From Limosilactobacillus reuteri (lineage in GTDB: Bacteria > Bacillota > Bacilli > Lactobacillales > Lactobacillaceae), in contig NZ_CP027805.1 of assembly GCF_003072625.1 (NCBI RefSeq), forward strand, positions 1,176,001-1,240,000: a stretch of DNA of 64,000 nucleotides. The letters run 5' to 3'. Within the stretch, counting starts at the first letter, position 1; every line of letters begins with the position of its first letter. Shown here piece after piece: positions 7,592-18,520 of the stretch. The position numbers and the translations under genes are program-made. Below the pieces are notes generated by a model that was not told where the DNA came from, ran no database searches, and saw nothing but the letters and a program-made list of their open reading frames with translations.

Positions 7592-8646
7592 GGCAGATTG
7601 TAAAATTTGAGTTGAACATTTAAGTGGACAGAAAAACCCATCAAGGTCTTTAATGGTGTTACCACAACATTCCATTAGAAAGAAGGACCTTAATGGGCAC
7701 CACTATTTTATCATTCCAGAACCGCATTGTCATTGAAACGCTTCATAATGAAGGACGTTCCTTACGATACATCGCTAATTACTTAGGCTTTAGTAAAACC
7801 ACAGTCTTTAACGAACTTCACCGGCTCAACGGTGAGTATCAAGCTGAACTAGCGCAAACTGACTTTGAACGCAAGGTTAGTCAACGGGGGCGGAAGTCTT
7901 CACTCACTAAAAGCCTTAAGCACTTGATTGAGGAAAAGATTCAAGTCCAGAAGTGGTCCCCTGAACAAGTTGCCCATGTAGTTGGGATTGCCTACAAGAT
8001 GGTCTATAACTGGATTGATCAAGGATGGCTTGATGTACAGTTACCCGATTTGCCTGATCATGGAATTCGTCGTCATCGTGCTAAAGAAAAGCGTGGTACG
8101 TTCAGTCACGGCCGCTCCATTGAGGAGCGTCCTCATAAAGTCGAAACTCGCCAAGAATTCGGCCACTTTGAAGCTGATACCGTACTTTCTGGCAAACGTA
8201 AAGGTCAAGCTATGGTGACTTTTGTGGAGCGTAAGAGTCGCCTGACAATTGTTAAACGGCTCCATGGTCGCGATAGTCAGTCCATGACTCAAGCCGTACT
8301 TGAACTAGCTAGTCAACTTCAGGACAAGCTCAAGACGCTTACCGTGGATCATGGGAAAGAATTCGCTAACTATCAGGCAATTGAACAGCTAACGGGTACT
8401 CAGGTTTACTTTGCCCATGCCTATTCACCGCACGAACGCGGTAGTAATGAGAACCGTAATCGAGTTTTGCGACGGTTTATTCCCAAGGGACAAGCCATTG
8501 AAGAGCTGAGCGATCGCCAGCTGGTTCAAATCAATTGGTATCTGAATTCCCGACCACTTAAATGTCTTAACTGGCACACACCAATCGAGATCTTCTTGCT
8601 TAATCTACGTCACTAAATTCATTCAAGTTATTTCTTGCAATCTGCC
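7592..8646 (+). mobile_element. IS30-family insertion sequence
   Basis: About 1055 bp, bounded by imperfect inverted repeats beginning GGCAGATTG (7592 on plus, 8646 on minus). The left end cuts a CRISPR repeat and the right end lies inside cas9. No direct target duplication is visible, as expected if the element took part in an adjacent deletion or recombination rather than a simple insertion. Confidence 0.85.
7693..8616 (+). CDS. IS30-family transposase
   Basis: DDE transposase of 307 aa that cuts and joins the ends of its own element. N-terminal helix-turn-helix segments (ALHNEGRSLRYIA-like region, residues 10-40) are followed by the catalytic core: D in FEADTVLSG, D in LTVDHGKEF and E in GSNENRNRVLRRF. 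Length is normal and the frame is intact, so it may be active. Ribosome binding site AGAAAGAAGGACC precedes the ATG. Confidence 0.92.
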   Translation: MGTTILSFQNRIVIETLHNEGRSLRYIANYLGFSKTTVFNELHRLNGEYQAELAQTDFERKVSQRGRKSSLTKSLKHLIEEKIQVQKWSPEQVAHVVGIAYKMVYNWIDQGWLDVQLPDLPDHGIRRHRAKEKRGTFSHGRSIEERPHKVETRQEFGHFEADTVLSGKRKGQAMVTFVERKSRLTIVKRLHGRDSQSMTQAVLELASQLQDKLKTLTVDHGKEFANYQAIEQLTGTQVYFAHAYSPHERGSNENRNRVLRRFIPKGQAIEELSDRQLVQINWYLNSRPLKCLNWHTPIEIFLLNLRH

Positions 8647-11600
8647 TTTCAATAAAATTCTTAGATAAAGTTACTAATGATTCTGAATCTAGCACTAACT
8701 GACGTGCATTATATTGATAAGTAGAACTACCCAACGTAAATTTCTGGTCACCATCAACTATTAACTGACGATACATAACTTCAGGGATAATCACATCAAA
8801 CTCTTGTGGTACAAGAACCCTTTGACCAGTCTTTCGATCCTTCTTTGTCTTAGCAATTTGTGGCTCAATGACTGCCTTTAATTCTGCAAGGTACTTTTCA
8901 TTACTCTTTTTCTTTGCTTGATTTAATTTGTTAACTGCTCTTACTGGGATTCCAACGATACGGTAAGTTTCACCTTTTTTATTTCGTAACCTAATGATAG
9001 ACATATACGCTGCTTTACTTCCACTATATCCACCATAAATTGCTGTGGTTTTATTTTGCTTCAGCGGAATTAATTTCTTACCTGAATTAGCTGGGTAAAT
9101 TGTTTGATCAAACAATGCACCACTTCGCGTATATACTTCTTGTGAAATTAACATGTACTTAAAATTATAACCACGGTTCAATTTGGCAACTAATTCATCA
9201 CGATCACCAATAATTTCACCAGTTTCCTTGTTTATAATCTTAGTTGGTTTCCTTATTTTTACATTTTTGCCCTCGGGCTCAAGATCATACAAAAAATTAA
9301 AGTGGTTAGTTTTCATCCCAATCCGAGTACTTTGTTTATCAAATTTTTTAAACTGACCATAAACAAAATATGGCTGCAATTTAGGATAACGATTATATAG
9401 GTATTGCCCTATAAATGCACTTAAATACGCATCAACAGCATGATGATAGTCATTAACATCCCGATTCTTAATTAGGTTAAATGATTCACGCATTTGATGA
9501 GTTAAACTTGCTTTAACTTCAATAATCTTAGAATCAGGATAACGACTTGCTAAAATATTTGCAGCTAATTTTATAACTTGGCGTGTTTCAACTAACTGAC
9601 GGTTCACAAAACCAACTGCTTTAAACTTATCGATACTTTCGGGATTAGTTTGCAAGTTATTAAGTTTACGTTTACTAATCAAGCCGTGCTTTTGTAATTT
9701 GTTCCAAAATGGTTTCATCTTTCCAAATTTTAAAGCCGGAACAGTGTCAGACTTAGCGTTATTATCCTTTCGTCTTACAAGTATCCGGTTATCTAATGAA
9801 TCATCCTTAAGAAACGCCTGCGGAAGGATATGGTCAATGTCATACATAGTCGAAATTTCATCAATATTAATTGGCTTCCCTGTATACATATCGCGACCAA
9901 GCTGGGTAAAGTATAAGTATAACCGATCTGATAAATCTGAAACACTACCTAACTCTTTAATTAACTGATCATCTTTCAGTAATTCTTTAGCGGTAGTTTC
10001 ATAAATTTTTTGGATTTGTGTTTTCCTTGACTTTGTACGATCTGACCGTTCATCCGAGCGAGCAAACTCTAACGAAATAAACTTTGGTACTTTTCCAGCT
10101 GCCTTAACAATATCATCGACAACTTTAATTACCTGGCGAATTGCCTTTTTATTTTGTGGTGAAGTATAGGCATTGGCCAGTACGTCTTCGTAATTATCCT
10201 CAGTTAATTTATCTTGGTTCTCGTTAGTAATCTGTTCAGCAAACTCTGGACGACTTTGAATCTCCATAAATGTTCGCTGTGAGTTCCACAATATATCAAG
10301 AATTGATCTCCCATTCTTATCTTTTAGTTCGACTAGTAATTTTCTTGATAATCGTCCCCAGCCTTGATAGCGATGGCTTACTAACTCATTCTTTTGCTTT
10401 TCAGTGAGCCACCCAATTTCTTGTAACTTAACCTTATAGATCCGTGAATCTTCAAAAACAGTTGACCATTCAATAATCTTTTCTAAATCATCCTGCTTAT
10501 TAGGATCATCAACAATTTCACTTCCTAGTATTTTTGTAAATCAATATATGAGCTTAATTGTGAATTAAATTTTTCAGGATCAGAGAGACCTGTAATTTGA
10601 GGTCGTTCAGGGATACCAAGATTTGCTTGAAGATAATTAGCTAACTTCTTCCTATTAATTTTCTTTTGGTGCTTAAATAGGTCATTATAAAGATTTTGTT
10701 TAACCGAAACAGAGAGTTTTTTACCATTTACTCTAATCATATTTAGCTCATTCAATACCTTAAAACGTTCGTAAATAAGGCTATGGGCAGGTAATACATC
10801 TTCGCCGATTAAATACGTATCCTTAGTAATCATCCGCTTAATAAAGTTATTTGCAGACGAAATTCTATCTACTTTTTTATCAAAATTCCATGGCGTTATT
10901 TGACCATTTTCTTTACGAACCATCCACGCAAATGAAGCATTTTTATTTCCTTGTTCTGTTTGAGGAGTTGTTTTAGGATCAATTAACGGTCCAACATAAT
11001 ACGGTACCCGGAAAGCAATTAATTCATCTAGCTTATACTTTGCATCTTTATGCTCCTTAACTGGATTTAATTCTGCTAACCATGGATAATATTGAGATTG
11101 GTTTACTATAATCTGATCAAGTTCTTTTTGGTGAAGCTGATATGGAATGACCCCATTTTGATTGGTCCGTTGCTTAGGCATAAACTTTTCTTCACTAATT
11201 AAGCCAAGAATTTTTTGAGTTGTTTCGGACTTATCAAGATTCTTCTTTACTGCTTTATAAAATTCTTCTTGAGAAATATGTCCGCTTTTCTTCAAAGAAT
11301 TTCCAACATACTGGGCGTAGGTTTCAGCAATCTCTTTCCGATTTTTTATAGGAAGGATCTTTACATATTTCTTTAATAAATCAAGGTGTTCCTTATGAGT
11401 ATCATACTTATCAATCATTGCTTCGGAAAGACTCATTCCACTTGGAACAATTCCATTTAAAGTCAATCGTGAGTACAAACTTAAAATAATATTCAAAATT
11501 GATTCTTGACTTTCATCAAGTTCGGAAATCAAGTTGGGTAACTTATCATCAATGTCGGCGCTACTAAAGTTTAGTTTCCATTTGCTTTTATCATCTGCTT

Positions 11601-12448
11601 CAATTTTCAAAATTTCATTTAGTGAAAAGTTATAGCCAAGAATTGCTTTACTTATCTGAGTAGCAATTTGCTTATTTATTTATCCAGTTCCTTATTATCC
11701 TGAGACGTAAGTAAAAGTTTAGCAATTTGCTTATTTATTTATCCAGTTCCTTATTATCCTGAGACGTAAGTAAAAGTTTAGCAACTTGCTTTTGCTTATC
11801 AAACTTCTTAATACTATGATCCAGTAAAATATCACTTATTTCTTTTACATTTTGTAAATTAATTTCAAAAATATTATTAGGATCTTCATTTAAGCAAAGA
11901 TTATTCAGCTCATTGAAATCACCTGCAAAATCAATCTTACTCGTATCAAAATGTGCTACAGGTGTGGAATTCAAGAAATTTCCCCGGTACTTGATCATAT
12001 GGTGAATTGCTAAGAAGATAGCCCGAAGATCAAATTTTTTATTTTCAGTCATCAATGCATATCGCAAATGATAAATTGTCGGATATTCCTCAGAAAATTT
12101 TTGATCTGTAATATCAGGAAAAAGTAATGATCCACTAAAATTTTTGTTATTATCTTTTGGTGAAAGATTTGATTCCTTCAAACGTGCAAAGAATGTGGGA
12201 TCAACAGGCGTAATATATGGGTCAAAAAACTCTTCTAATAATGATAAGCGCCATTTACGCCGGTTCAATCGCTGACGGGTAGTGCGAAAGCCACGCCGAT
12301 CTGCCGCTGTTTGCCCTTCTTCAAATAGGTTAACCCCCACTACTGTTTTTCCTTTTAACTTAATTGGGTCATACTGTTCATCAATACCAGCGAAGCCGAC
12401 CGAGGTTGCCCCAATATCAAGTCCAAGATTATAGTCTTTCTTTATCAT
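8600..12448 (-). pseudogene. cas9: Type II-A cas9, inactivated by duplication, frameshift and IS truncation
   Basis: Pieces of one Cas9 lie in three frames. RuvC-I (LGLDIGATSVGF) and the Arg-rich bridge helix are in 12448-11735; RuvC-II (ISLEFARSDE), HNH (DIDHILPQAFLKDD) and RuvC-III (HHAVDAYLSAF) are in the last piece. Catalytic residues look intact. Lesions: a 59-bp tandem duplication (11662-11779) with a TAA; loss of one A near 10530 (CAAAAATAC, where one more A restores LQKILGSEIVDD); and a right-end IS30 junction at 8646 that removes about 100-130 C-terminal residues of the PAM-interacting domain and adds about 15 codons from the IS. The start is the ATG behind AGGAGGAGAAGG. The normal length is about 1370 aa. 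Confidence 0.93.
11662..11779. repeat. 59-bp perfect tandem duplication inside cas9
   Basis: The 59-nt unit starting AGCAATTTGCTTATTTATTT occurs at 11662-11720 and again at 11721-11779. Because 59 is not a multiple of three it shifts the cas9 frame. Both copies are identical, suggesting a recent slippage or unequal recombination event, or an assembly artefact. Confidence 0.93.
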
Positions 12449-12525
12449 CCTTCTCCTCCTAGATAAGTCATTCATATATAGCATAGCAGAATTTTTAACC
12501 TAAATCATTAGTATCTATTGCATTT

Positions 12526-14295: not shown

Positions 14296-15528
14296 ATGAA
14301 ACTTTTTGTCGGTATTGACGTTAGCTCAAAAGATTTAGTCACTTCAATGATTTCTGAAGAAACATGTGATGTTGTTTTTCAAGGTAACTTTGTTAATGAT
14401 TTGAAAGGCGCAACCGAATTAAAAGCCATTATTATTAACACGGCGAATTCAAATCATCTCGACCAAGTTGTGATTGGCATGGAAGCTACTTCCATTTACA
14501 GTTTTCACCCCGCAATGTTTTTTCAAGAAGACGCTGACCTCAAAAAACTTAATACGCAATCAGTAGTCATCGATCCCAAGAAAACTAAGCGGTATCATGA
14601 TGTCTTCGCTGAAGATAAAAATGACCAAATTGATGCTTTTTATATTGCGGACTTCTTACGTGTTGGACGTTATTCAACAGGGATTGTTCGCCAAGAAAAC
14701 TATATTGCCCTGCAACGATTAACGCGTTCCCGGTATGAGCTTGTTCAAAGCTTAGTTCGCGCCAAGCAACACTTTATTGAGAATTTATATTATAAGCTCA
14801 ATAAACTAGTGATTTCTGATGAACTTAATACCTCAGTCTTTGGTTCGACGATGATGAGTCTGTTAACCGAAGATATGACCACTGATGACTTACTTAACAT
14901 TTCAATTAATGATTTAGCTGATTACCTGAATGAACACGGTCGGGGTCGCTTCGCGAACCCTGAAGCCTTGGCAAAAACGATTCAAAAAGCAGTTCGCACT
15001 TCTTATCGTTTAGACAAGGTAATTGCTAATTCGGTTGATACTGTTCTCTCAGTTTATGCCGAGGAAATTAAAGCTTTTCAGAAAATGATTAAAGACCTCG
15101 ACAAGGCAATTGAAGAAGTAACGAAAGTCATCGGTAAGGAGGAAGAAGTTCTGCGTTCAATTCCCGGAATTGGACCAGTATACGCTGCTGGTATCTTAGC
15201 CGAAATTGGTCAAATTGACCGATTTGATAATGAAGCTAAGCTAGCTAAGTACGCTGGGCTTTCCTGGCGAGAAAAGCAGTCCGGAGGTTACGCTAGTGAC
15301 AACACTCCACTCAAAAGAACTGGCAATGCTTATCTTAGATACTATCTGGTTGAAGCTGCCAACCGCGTTAGAATTCAGGATCCAGTTTTGGGCGAGTATT
15401 ATCAGCGTAAATATAAAGAAGTGAAGCATACACCATCAAAACGCGCCCTCGTTCTTACCGCACGTAAACTTATCAGGGTGATTTTCTTCCTACTCAAAAA
15501 TCATCAAATCTATCAGGAGAAGAGGTAA
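14296..15528 (+). CDS. IS110-family transposase (DEDD recombinase)
   Basis: Recombinase of 410 aa. The N-terminal RuvC-like DEDD domain shows VGIDVSSKD (D8), GMEATSIY and DKNDQIDAFYIADF; a coiled middle follows; the C-terminal Transposase_20 domain shows LRSIPGIGPVYAAGILAEIG and the serine-bearing SGGYASDNTPLKRTGNAY. Intact, with ribosome binding site GAAAGGAGG 8 bp before the ATG, so the element may be mobile. It works with the RNA predicted in its leader. Confidence 0.92.
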   Translation: MKLFVGIDVSSKDLVTSMISEETCDVVFQGNFVNDLKGATELKAIIINTANSNHLDQVVIGMEATSIYSFHPAMFFQEDADLKKLNTQSVVIDPKKTKRYHDVFAEDKNDQIDAFYIADFLRVGRYSTGIVRQENYIALQRLTRSRYELVQSLVRAKQHFIENLYYKLNKLVISDELNTSVFGSTMMSLLTEDMTTDDLLNISINDLADYLNEHGRGRFANPEALAKTIQKAVRTSYRLDKVIANSVDTVLSVYAEEIKAFQKMIKDLDKAIEEVTKVIGKEEEVLRSIPGIGPVYAAGILAEIGQIDRFDNEAKLAKYAGLSWREKQSGGYASDNTPLKRTGNAYLRYYLVEAANRVRIQDPVLGEYYQRKYKEVKHTPSKRALVLTARKLIRVIFFLLKNHQIYQEKR

Positions 15529-15992: not shown

Positions 15993-16138
15993 ATGTCACC
16001 TCATCAAGTGATAATTCTAGTCTTAACTATAAAATAAAAGAACTAGCTACGCAATAAGAAAATTTCACGCAAGCCTTCTTAACAGTATTTATCAATCACC
16101 GCTGTTATAATTATTGCTAGAGAAGGGAAGTGAAACAA

Positions 16139-16363
16139 GTGGACTTAACCAAGTATCGAATCGATCCTGCTAAGTTTGCTTCAGCTTGTGTTTAAAGTTC
16201 ACCTGATCTTACCACTGAAGATAAATTAAGGATTTACAAGGAAGCATACGAAGAAGCGCTTACTTTCTATCACCAAATTCAAACAGCCGTTATTAATAAA
16301 GGTCGTTCAAAAGAAGATCGCAGTCTTAAGGAAATGGGAGACTTTTTCGATTTAAAGAACTAA
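16139..16363 (+). pseudogene. Small conserved-looking gene with one internal stop codon
   Basis: From GTG 16139 (after AGAAGGGAAG) a 75-codon frame runs to TAA 16361. It has one stop, TAA at 16193-16195, codon 19. The rest is open and helical, ending LKEMGDFFDLKN. A terminator follows. One substitution would restore a 74-aa protein. I do not recognise the family. An alternative start downstream of the stop is not obvious. Confidence 0.55.
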
Positions 16364-16480: not shown

Positions 16481-16484
16481 TTAA

Positions 16485-16511
16485 AATAAAAAAGGATGCC
16501 GATTAAGGCAC
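16485..16511 (-). terminator. Terminator of the antitoxin RNA
   Basis: On the minus strand GGTGCC TTAATC GGCATCC forms a stem with one bulged T, followed by TTTTTTATTTT. Confidence 0.75.
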
Positions 16512-16578
16512 CCTGTTTACCGGTACGGATTAAGTAACGAACTGAATCCATTTTGCACACCGGCATCTTTATCATTAT
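16490..16578 (-). ncRNA. Predicted antitoxin small RNA of a type I toxin-antitoxin locus
   Basis: A strong minus-strand promoter (TTGTAT, 16 bp, TATAAT at 16585-16590) would start an RNA of about 89 nt near 16578, ending at the hairpin GGTGCC-TTAATC-GGCATCC with TTTTTTATTTT (16483-16511). Its 5' end is complementary to the start region of the divergent peptide mRNA, because the 16-mer GCATCTTTATCATTAT is present at both 16563-16578 and 16686-16701. A second shared 9-mer, GTAACGAAC (16534-16542, 16634-16642), gives another pairing site. This is the two-repeat logic of the Fst/par systems. Confidence 0.65.
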
Positions 16579-16584
16579 GCTTTA

Positions 16585-16613
16585 ATTATAACACAGTAAT
16601 TCTGTGATACAAT
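16585..16613. promoter_or_regulatory. Back-to-back promoters of the toxin-antitoxin locus
   Basis: TATAAT on the minus strand (16585-16590, with TTGTAT 16 bp upstream) drives the small RNA; TGATACAAT on the plus strand (TACAAT at 16608-16613, extended by TG) drives the peptide mRNA. The two overlap and diverge, with the inverted ACAGTAATTCTGT between them. Confidence 0.6.
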
Positions 16614-16659
16614 AGTCAAGCACGCTGTTAGGCGTAACGAACCTACAAATATATGCAAG

Positions 16660-16795
16660 TTGGGAGGTGTCCCAATTGCATTGGTGCATCTTTATCATTA
16701 TCGTGCCGAACGGGCTCGTTAAGCAACTGTTACACTTTGTAAAGGTTGCAATCAAAAAGGCTCTCAAACGCCTAATTGAGGAATTACTTGGTTAA
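16660..16795 (+). CDS. Predicted small membrane-active toxin (type I, Fst-like) with SD-sequestering hairpin
   Basis: TTGGGA-GGTG-TCCCAA (16660-16675) is a perfect 6-bp hairpin with the Shine-Dalgarno sequence inside, as in Fst-type toxin mRNAs where it delays translation. TTG at 16676 opens a 39-codon frame to TAA 16793-16795. The peptide has a hydrophobic N-terminus (CIFIIIVPNGLV) and a basic amphipathic tail (KVAIKKALKRLIEELLG). Other starts are possible; a slightly longer ancestral frame beginning VHLYHF-like cannot be excluded. No homology search was possible; the call rests on layout. Confidence 0.55.
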
Positions 16796-16838
16796 AACTC
16801 CATTTAATTCCAAGAGGAGGTGGGCGAGATGTTATTTC

Positions 16839-16875
16839 AGCGGTAGCGTTTATTTGCTATCGCTGTTTTATTATC
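16839..16875 (+). terminator. Terminator of the toxin mRNA
   Basis: AGCGGTAGCG and CTATCGCTG form a stem around TTTATTTG and are followed by TTTTATTAT. A second ribosome-binding-like GAGGAGGTGGGCGAG ATG with a 5-codon frame lies just before it. Confidence 0.75.
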
Positions 16876-16885
16876 CCGAAATGTC

Positions 16886-17948
16886 AATTTAAGTTAGAAA
16901 GAAAATAGTTGCTCATCAGTGACGTAAGACATGAATACTTCATATGGAGTTCGATAGCCTAGTGATTTACGGGGCAGGTTATTTCGCTTACTCATCAGTT
17001 GGGTTACCAATTCATCAGGAAGATTGCGGAAATCTAGCTGTTTCGTTAAGCCATCCCGGCGTAAAAGACCGTTGTTGTTTTCGTTCAGCCCTCGTTGATT
17101 GGGAGCACCAACCTCGGCAAAGTAAGTGTGAAGGTCAAATTGATTGGCAATCTCGCGCTAGCCGGCGAATTCTTTTCCGTTGTCAAAGGTAATCGATTTG
17201 AAGAAGTACCGCGGGAATTTCCGAAGCCACTGACTTAAGTGTTGGTTAATCGCATCAGCCGTCTTTTCGTGCACATTGAGTATAATTTCGACCTTCGATT
17301 GGCGTTCGGTCAGGGTCATTACCGCCCCTTGGTGCTTTTTGCCTTGGACGGTATCAGCTTCAAGGTGCCCAAATTCAGTGGCATAGTGCGGAAAGTCCTT
17401 GGCACGCTCGTGAATACTTCGCCCCAATTGGCCAGCCTTCCCGCGGCGCTCGACATAGCAATTCGGGTGCCGCTTACCTCGCATCGGCAAGGAACGGACA
17501 TCGAAGCCGAACTGGCCACGTTCAAACATCCGGTAAAGAGTTCGCCGGTTACAACTAATTGGGCGCTCAGCGCGCCCAATAATGGTATCAGGCGTCCACC
17601 CCTGGGCAATTTTGTCGTTGATATAAGTGAGTTCAGCCAGTGACAACTGAGTACGTTTTCGGCCACAACGTTGCTTATTGCGCATATAGTGATCTTGATA
17701 ATCAGCAATTGAGGCACCGGTTTCCAGGTAACGATAAACGCGATAAACGGTTTCGGCGCAACGGTTGATCATTTGGGCCACTCGGTACGCTTTAAGCTTT
17801 TGCACGAAAGAATGGGCGATGATTGTCAGCTCGTTTGTGGTAAGATGGGTGTAAGTCATTTGTGGTTTCCTTTCTTTTGTTTAGGGGTATTCAAAAGTCT
17901 ACCACAAATGGCTTTTCTATTTTTCTAACTTATTTTCTAACTTAATTT
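16886..17948 (-). mobile_element. IS30-family insertion sequence, second type
   Basis: About 1.06 kb between imperfect inverted repeats sharing TTAAGTTAGAAA (16889-16900 and, on minus, 17934-17945). The right end has a second, internal copy of the TTAGAAA block. It lies between the toxin-antitoxin locus and rplS. Sequence differs strongly from the element at 7.6 kb. Confidence 0.75.
16915..17859 (-). pseudogene. IS30-family transposase with amber mutation
   Basis: From ATG 17859 the frame gives an N-terminal helix-turn-helix, the FEXDT-like D in GHLEADTVQGKK and D in ITFDNGKEFAG, then TAG at 17159-17161. Reading on in the same frame gives REIANQFDLHTYF and the NENNNGLLRR catalytic glutamate motif to a stop near 16915. 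A single substitution (probably from TGG or CAG) thus inactivated a normal transposase of about 310 aa. GC content is higher than in the neighbouring genes. Confidence 0.85.
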
Positions 17949-18059: not shown

Positions 18060-18419
18060 CTAGTTGTCACGACGACGTTCAGCGATACGAGTAGCCTTAC
18101 CAGTACGTTCACGTAAGTAGTAAAGCTTAGCACGACGTACACGACCGTAACGAAGAACATCAATCTTGTCAACACGTGGTGAGTGAACTGGGAAAGTACG
18201 TTCAACACCTACACCGTTACTGATCTTACGTACAGTGTAAGTAGCACTGATACCAGCACCGTGGCGCTTGATAACAACACCTTCGAACATTTGGATACGT
18301 TCACGTGAACCTTCAACGATCCGAGCGTGAACACGAACAGTATCACCGGCACGGAATTCTGGAATATCATCCCGTAATTGACTAGCAGTAATCTTTTCGA
18401 TTAACTTATTTTGACGCAT
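18060..18419 (-). CDS. rplS: 50S ribosomal protein L19
   Basis: Structural protein at the 30S-50S interface (119 aa). The block [20 protein letters not shown] and the basic C-terminal tail [20 protein letters not shown] are diagnostic. The start chosen is [10 protein letters not shown] at 18419, behind GGAAAG; an in-frame start nine codons upstream lacks conservation. In Bacillus rplS follows trmD; here an amino-acid permease gene sits between. Confidence 0.96.
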
Positions 18420-18424
18420 AATGT

Positions 18425-18520
18425 ATTTCTTTCCTTTCGCCGACATTCATGTCCTGTATGACGGGCAGCGGAATACCGTTATTCACAGCTAAACAGCCAA
18501 TAACTACTATACATTGTTTT
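18425..18520 (-). promoter_or_regulatory. Possible L19 leader region
   Basis: The 90 nt before rplS contain paired segments (GCTGTGAATAACGG..., CTGCCCGTCATACAGGACATG) compatible with the structured L19 leader known in Firmicutes that mediates autogenous control. Assignment is from context; a covariance model would decide. Confidence 0.4.

Follow-up and report, generated by a model that had tools for sequence, protein, structure and literature searches.

A candidate type I toxin-antitoxin family of lactobacilli with divergent genes and matched antisense repeats

What kind of system is encoded by a compact locus in which two short RNAs are predicted to leave overlapping divergent promoters and to share direct repeats? 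The locus lies in the window analyzed here, a 64,000-nucleotide (nt) stretch of Limosilactobacillus reuteri DNA (NZ_CP027805.1, positions 1,176,001 to 1,240,000 of the forward strand). A sequence-only reading had proposed a type I toxin-antitoxin-like module, in which a small RNA is antisense to the mRNA of a short hydrophobic and basic peptide. Our analysis indicates that the locus very probably represents a new type I toxin-antitoxin family, which combines the logic of par with the gene order of tisB/istR-1 and is a member of neither; its transcription and toxicity are predicted from sequence.

The repeats are the 16-mer GCATCTTTATCATTAT and the 9-mer GTAACGAAC. Each occurs in direct orientation, once per transcript region, and was recovered where the sequence-only reading had placed it (Table 1). 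The longest direct repeat in the 393-bp locus is 16 nt, and 2,000 dinucleotide shuffles never gave one above 14 nt (mean 8.2). If such repeats mediate pairing between the two RNAs, then the two copies within a locus must remain matched, while copies at different loci are free to differ. We therefore asked how well the 16-nt copy in the small RNA, here called the seed, matches its own toxin gene. Across 56 modules with 50 different seeds, the own-seed score averages 14.05 of 16, versus 6.32 for non-cognate pairs. The own toxin is the best match, ties allowed, in 52 of these modules, and the highest of 20,000 permutation means is 7.57. The first 45 modules alone (40 seeds) behave alike: seeds score 14.2 with their own toxin gene and 6.4 with the rest, and the best match is cognate in 42. 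Moreover, the predicted seed duplex reaches -23.8 kcal/mol in cognate pairs versus -12.0 in the others, and the cognate duplex is the strongest in 40 of the 45. The property that defines type I systems, an RNA antitoxin complementary to the toxin mRNA, is thus present as matched co-variation and sequence-level complementarity. This co-variation strongly supports a type I-like module whose small RNA is complementary to separate parts of the toxin mRNA.

Where on the mRNA would the seed act? One of the two contacts had been placed at the translation start. The second 16-mer does not cover the start codon; it lies just inside the open reading frame (ORF), from +11 to +26, in codons 4-9. These codons are within the initiation footprint of the ribosome. 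The residues encoded by the seed segment are I, L, V, F, M, W or C in 229 of 230 cases, and the predicted seed target is hydrophobic coding sequence and antisense target at once.

The idea of two antisense sites holds in that both co-vary as matched pairs, but the sequence-only reading had not listed a third stretch common to the two RNAs, located at the mRNA 5' end. The loop motifs common to the small RNA and the leader vary between loci yet match within them (GTAACGAAC, TAATCA, TAACCA, TAGCAA, TAGGAA, GATTGAC and others). The cognate loops have a mean of 5.79 letters in common versus 4.71, above all 20,000 permutations. For the third stretch, scored only in modules with a leader longer than 45 nt, the means are 7.21 and 5.43, again above all 20,000 permutations. 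The hairpin TTGGGA-GGTG-TCCCAA over the Shine-Dalgarno sequence is present as described, and its equivalents recur. Of 45 leaders, 44 have a stem of at least 4 bp over the Shine-Dalgarno sequence (21 different sequences), versus 21.5% of shuffles, and 21 have one of at least 6 bp, versus 1.2%. RNAalifold found no structure in the sequence-based leader alignment, and the stems were then read sequence by sequence.

Both RNAs have a predicted start and a predicted end. In 42 of 45 modules, 6 nt separate the seed end from the leftward -10 box (ATTATA when read on the plus strand). Since the first 16-nt copy of the window locus stands 6 nt from a perfect leftward -10, the leftward RNA would, by this promoter geometry, begin with that copy. 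The rightward -10, part of the extended element TGATACAAT in the window, follows a 17-bp spacer in 34 of 45 modules, reads exactly TACAAT in 37 and is preceded by TG in 43. From the positions of the two -10 boxes it follows that the -35 position of each promoter falls on the -10 of the other. The overlapping divergent promoters of the sequence-only reading thus gain support from a geometry that is fixed across 45 modules. A terminator scan also bears out the separate terminator proposed for each RNA, with one terminator-like site on each strand (Table 1).

The 39-codon ORF, likewise proposed from the sequence, starts with TTG, and its homologues have ATG, GTG or TTG at this place. The toxins are 24-44 amino acids long with a net charge of +3 to +9, and 43 of 45 have a proline between the hydrophobic N-terminal run and the basic tail. 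A second subfamily has LLPFLSKKQLKK in place of the commonest VP(N/S)KHVK. The C-terminal coding part is under constraint, with a pooled ratio of nonsynonymous to synonymous change (pN/pS) of 0.31 among 11 relatives. We compared 44 toxins with four databases and found weak hits: scattered matches to five families in Pfam (best E 0.082), two matches in NCBIfam (best 0.064), 13 in PHROGs (best phrog_4166, E 0.0011, a family of two members and unknown function) and two chains in PDB (E 2.9 and 3.4). No family in these four databases accommodates the toxins convincingly.

How widespread is the module? The window's genome has a single copy. BLAST with the locus gave matches in 28 of 95 genomes, counting that of the window; only one of the 28 lies outside the genus. 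It also matched seven plasmid records (six L. reuteri, one L. gastricus) and Lactobacillus phage LR2. The sequence-only reading had named a covariance search for the arrangement in other genomes as a check. We built a model of the small RNA, R1, from 31 cassettes; it has two hairpins, and 10 of 12 pairs show pair-preserving changes on both sides. R1 matches 39 of 50 Limosilactobacillus genomes in 85 places, and these 39, like the 53 non-module rows discussed below, include some very weak matches (about 33-39 bits, e.g. L135, L137, L138, L140, L141), which are probably chance. At E 0.001 the model missed seven modules of the genus (L145, L184-L187, L189 and the second module in L095). A strictly filtered search of 295 genomes of the order, in which few candidates were scored, gave R1 matches in two, each a member of the window's genus (by genus, 1 of 74). 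The lack of matches elsewhere in the order is weak evidence, because a second genus of the same family does carry modules: a toxin profile made from 44 peptides hits 5 of the 61 genomes searched there. Four loci in three of these genomes share the layout, each with its own repeats (8-15 nt), and two further loci resemble the scars described below. The small RNAs of these second-genus loci (L179, L180, L182, L183, L147, L181) are strongly diverged and keep a TGCACG-type core.

A pattern scan added hosts that include L. panis, L. agrestis, L. balticus, L. caecicola, L. rudii, L. gastricus, L. secaliphilus and L. equigenerosi; two of its 15 genome-contig stretches (Verrucomicrobia, L162; Undibacterium, L173) look like chance. 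Four IMG/VR contigs carry the module, with a frameshifted toxin gene in one (L176). Of the toxin-profile hits L148-L158 we read five. No module was seen at L148-L151, all outside the family, where L148 and L150, as minus-strand hits read on the stored strand only, may still have one, nor at L153, from another genus of the same family. A tblastn search with three short peptides, two against plasmids and one against phages, gave no match, and is insensitive, because such modules do sit on plasmids. Rfam has no match at the window locus, and open-access literature searches, with most subscription journals out of reach, found no paper on the family. The module belongs to an unannotated family.

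The module sets behind these comparisons were derived as follows. Removal of identical stretches reduced 108 cassette hits to 102, 51 with and 51 without a toxin gene. Two wrong pairings (L036:1380 and L095:494) were dropped from the former, and collapsing duplicates with the same seed and leader left 45 modules; 11 toxin-profile modules added by hand to these 45 automatic ones make up the set of 56. The leader alignment holds 40 of 43 references and the toxin alignment 44 of 45. In this material we observe the anatomy of the modules, their conservation, the coding constraint and the matched co-variation directly.

Do toxin and small RNA depend on each other equally? Within the genus the toxin profile has 61 matches in 36 of 50 genomes. 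They comprise 49 complete modules, 10 fusions (nine at the seed and one at the 5'-end stretch), one gene broken by a stop codon and one relic without a small RNA or a recognizable Shine-Dalgarno sequence. Every intact toxin gene so classified (49 of 49) has a matching small RNA alongside. By comparison, a perfect -10 without an intact toxin gene of its own following it is kept in 24 of the 53 other cassette rows, some of which are the same cassette on sister plasmids. In L111 the toxin gene has a premature stop and the -10 of the cassette is perfect. For some orphan seeds there is a matching toxin gene at another locus (L080 with L075, 16/16; L086 with L082, 14; L105 and L113 with L106, 14). 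These matches are suggestive only, because module seeds also score at least 13 with a foreign toxin in 8 of 45 cases. Tandem cassettes occur on plasmids L031-L034 and L036, and it is possible that toxin-less tandems of this kind are anti-addiction arrays.

Two side observations concern such cassettes. In L. reuteri plasmids, tandem small-RNA cassettes with differing 5' seeds are mostly toxin-less (L031 1246-1599, L032 923-1715, L036 1380-1593). Toxin-less cassettes with an intact -10 are found across three species (L099, L102, L107) or two (L105, L108), and may be retained orphans because their flanking sequence is common between genomes.

The genus and phage LR2 also hold 13 distinct scar loci, in which the small-RNA body and one repeat lead directly into toxin codons, without promoters, leader or start codon. 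Ten have a readable in-frame toxin C-terminus and three are recognizable at the DNA level only; L038 and L077 are one scar and were counted once. This is the structure that recombination between the direct repeats would produce. The phage scar (L038 301-470; L077) is near a lysin gene, and the same sequence adjoins a complete module in genome G039. Complete modules show another pattern. Between the window module and L091, identity is 94% across the small-RNA body and 98% across the toxin's C-terminal part but falls to 64-75% in seed, promoters, leader and N-terminus; L071 and L082 have the same conserved flanks and diverged middle. These few pairs suggest that the specificity segment may be exchanged by recombination. 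A broader reading is that the family is a naturally diversifying set of orthogonal RNA antitoxins, in which segment-swapping recombination makes new specificities and tandem toxin-less RNAs, plasmid-borne and chromosomal, give anti-addiction or immunity against the toxins of rival plasmids and prophages. We regard this as a tentative proposal with perhaps a minority chance of being right; if true, it would mean an RNA-level arms race in lactobacilli.

How might the module work? We infer transcription, pairing in the cell, attack by RNase III, toxicity, a membrane target and post-segregational killing. Of these, toxicity, membrane action and post-segregational killing are suggested by the character of the peptide, by the asymmetry described above and by plasmid position: in six L. 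reuteri plasmids, parM is followed by a small gene and then, 0.1-0.7 kb further on, by the module, a position that would suit a plasmid-stability element. We propose that the divergent overlapping promoters, which may exclude each other face to face, would drive two transcripts, a small RNA (about 91 nt) and the roughly 250-nt mRNA of a 39-amino-acid hydrophobic, basic peptide that probably harms the membrane of its own cell. The leader hairpin would cover the Shine-Dalgarno sequence of the mRNA. The two RNAs would probably meet first through their complementary loops and the short match at the mRNA 5' end, after which the 5' seed would pair with codons 4-9 and block translation initiation, probably exposing the duplex to RNase III. 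Upon loss of the locus, the RNA would be depleted before the message or the peptide.

Could the same locus be explained otherwise? It could be a rearranged Fst/par (Lpt) member in which the small-RNA gene has changed sides, and indeed the logic is that of par as described in PMC7472228: a loop contact, a repeat contact at translation start and a Shine-Dalgarno hairpin. Yet genes diverge and terminators are separate in every complete module read, the 44 toxins gave no Fst or Ldr match in Pfam at E up to 10, and PXXXG occurs in 0 of 45, so that we consider such a derivation quite unlikely. Membership in Fst/Ldr was rejected on the latter two grounds. Slightly better, though still improbable, is a peptide without toxicity, such as a signal, regulator or bacteriocin-like product under tight antisense control, given that conserved short basic peptides can serve otherwise and that the toxicity of this one is a prediction. 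An RNA beside 49 of 49 intact peptide genes, the many RNA cassettes without an intact peptide gene, the occurrence of broken peptide genes and the position near parM all argue for a toxin instead, and the plasmid tables, limited to short flanks, showed no gene for transport, immunity or export. Finally, the elements are multi-copy, often near mobile elements and in many copies decayed, as functionless repeats left by mobile-element activity might be. This last account is hardly credible in view of 50 seeds at one fixed register, the almost uniformly hydrophobic seed residues, the constrained coding sequence and the covarying hairpins.

Several points nevertheless weigh against a new type I family. 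Transcription and toxicity are predictions from sequence. Gene conversion between the repeats could contribute to the likeness of the copies without selection, although it leaves the fixed register unexplained. In 4 of 56 modules a foreign toxin is matched better than the own one, and the 61 profile hits were classified by eye. The permutations ignore the relatedness of modules, which affects the loop and 5'-end contacts most and makes them less certain than the seed. At least six loop letters are in common in 31 of 56 modules, versus 19% of non-cognate pairs; AGCT, which is self-complementary, stands in both loops of 15 modules, and several modules show neither feature. Predicted mean pairing of the Shine-Dalgarno sequence, at 0.67, barely exceeds the 0.63 of shuffles, and lies above the shuffles in 32 of 45 leaders. 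A generic sigma-70 scan listed neither promoter of the window locus, and therefore the promoter calls rest on family conservation.

Table 1. Coordinates of the predicted features of the module in the window
Feature	Position	Strand	Basis or remark
Predicted antitoxin small RNA	16488-16578	-	about 91 nt, 5' end = seed; model R1, terminator-like site 16514-16493
Seed, small-RNA 5' end, 16-nt repeat copy 1	16563-16578	-	repeat, co-variation, distance to -10
Small-RNA loop, 9-nt repeat copy 1	16534-16542	-	repeat, R1 pairs, co-variation
Leftward -10 box, TATAAT on minus strand	16585-16590	-	window sequence, geometry across modules
Rightward extended -10, TGATACAAT	16605-16613	+	-10 proper 16608-16613; geometry across modules
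Predicted toxin mRNA	16620-16870	+	about 250 nt; both ends placed by promoter geometry and the terminator
mRNA 5' end, third shared stretch (GCAC-type)	16620-16628	+	co-varies with small RNA
Leader loop, 9-nt repeat copy 2	16634-16642	+	repeat, co-variation
Shine-Dalgarno hairpin	16660-16675	+	window sequence; stems in leaders of the family
Toxin-like peptide ORF	16676-16795	+	39 amino acids, TTG start; homologues, profile, pN/pS of C-terminal part
Seed target, codons 4-9, 16-nt repeat copy 2	16686-16701	+	repeat, co-variation
Toxin mRNA terminator	16838-16865	+	terminator scan

Between the toxin stop codon and the terminator (16811-16846, +) there is a second strong Shine-Dalgarno-like stretch, AGGAGGTGGG, followed by the five-codon ORF ATG TTA TTT CAG CGG TAG; both are also found in close relatives such as L002, L031 and L032. 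The module sits between two transposase ORFs, 14296-15528 and 17158-17859, which we take to be of IS110 and IS30 type, respectively, and the nearby ORF 18060-18446 is presumably rplS. Just left of the module, a small frame (16136-16363, +) with an in-frame TAA near 16193 is perhaps a decayed gene. Further away, three separate ORFs follow one another on the minus strand between 8600 and 12484 (11735-12484, 10525-11610, 8600-10291); the first starts, as we take it, like Cas9, and together they are perhaps an interrupted cas9.

Why does this family matter? It would add a type I family of new layout that is common in Limosilactobacillus, with a bearing on plasmid stability in L. reuteri. Because the seed must encode a hydrophobic peptide and also set antisense specificity, its 50 versions offer a ready set for testing how specificity changes. 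Its orphan antitoxins make the family suited to asking whether they protect against foreign toxins.

How does the module relate to known type I systems? With par of pAD1 (Fst, RNA I/RNA II) and Lpt, as described in PMC7472228 and PMC5608710, it shares a short hydrophobic peptide with a charged tail, a loop contact followed by a repeat contact near the translation start, a Shine-Dalgarno sequence in a hairpin, and copies on both plasmids and chromosomes. The sequence-only reading was right about this likeness, and direct repeats at translation initiation together with a Shine-Dalgarno stem-loop are found here as in Fst/par. It was also right that the genes diverge here and converge in par. The par loci are convergent with a shared bidirectional terminator (PMC7472228), and Lpt of Lactobacillus plasmids is convergent as well (PMC5608710), whereas our modules have divergent genes with separate terminators instead of convergent promoters and a shared bidirectional one. 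Moreover, their toxins lack the PXXXG found in the majority of Fst/Ldr members and lack a Pfam family, and their main contact, in codons 4-9, is hypervariable between loci.

Divergence sets the module apart from par but not from type I systems at large, since a divergent order is already described for the enterobacterial loci tisB/istR-1, shoB/ohsC, zor/orz and dinQ/agrB (PMC4147584) and timP/timR (PMC7667032). Like these, the module has toxin and antitoxin genes as divergent neighbors, a small membrane peptide (here a predicted one) and complementarity away from the shared promoter region, and relatives of timP keep matched complementary stretches (PMC7667032). In those loci, pairing is described in the 5' untranslated region, away from the start site and coding sequence (PMC4147584, PMC7667032). 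Unlike them, the module has its longest predicted contact in the coding sequence and further ones at the loop and the mRNA 5' end, and its hosts are lactobacilli rather than enterobacteria.
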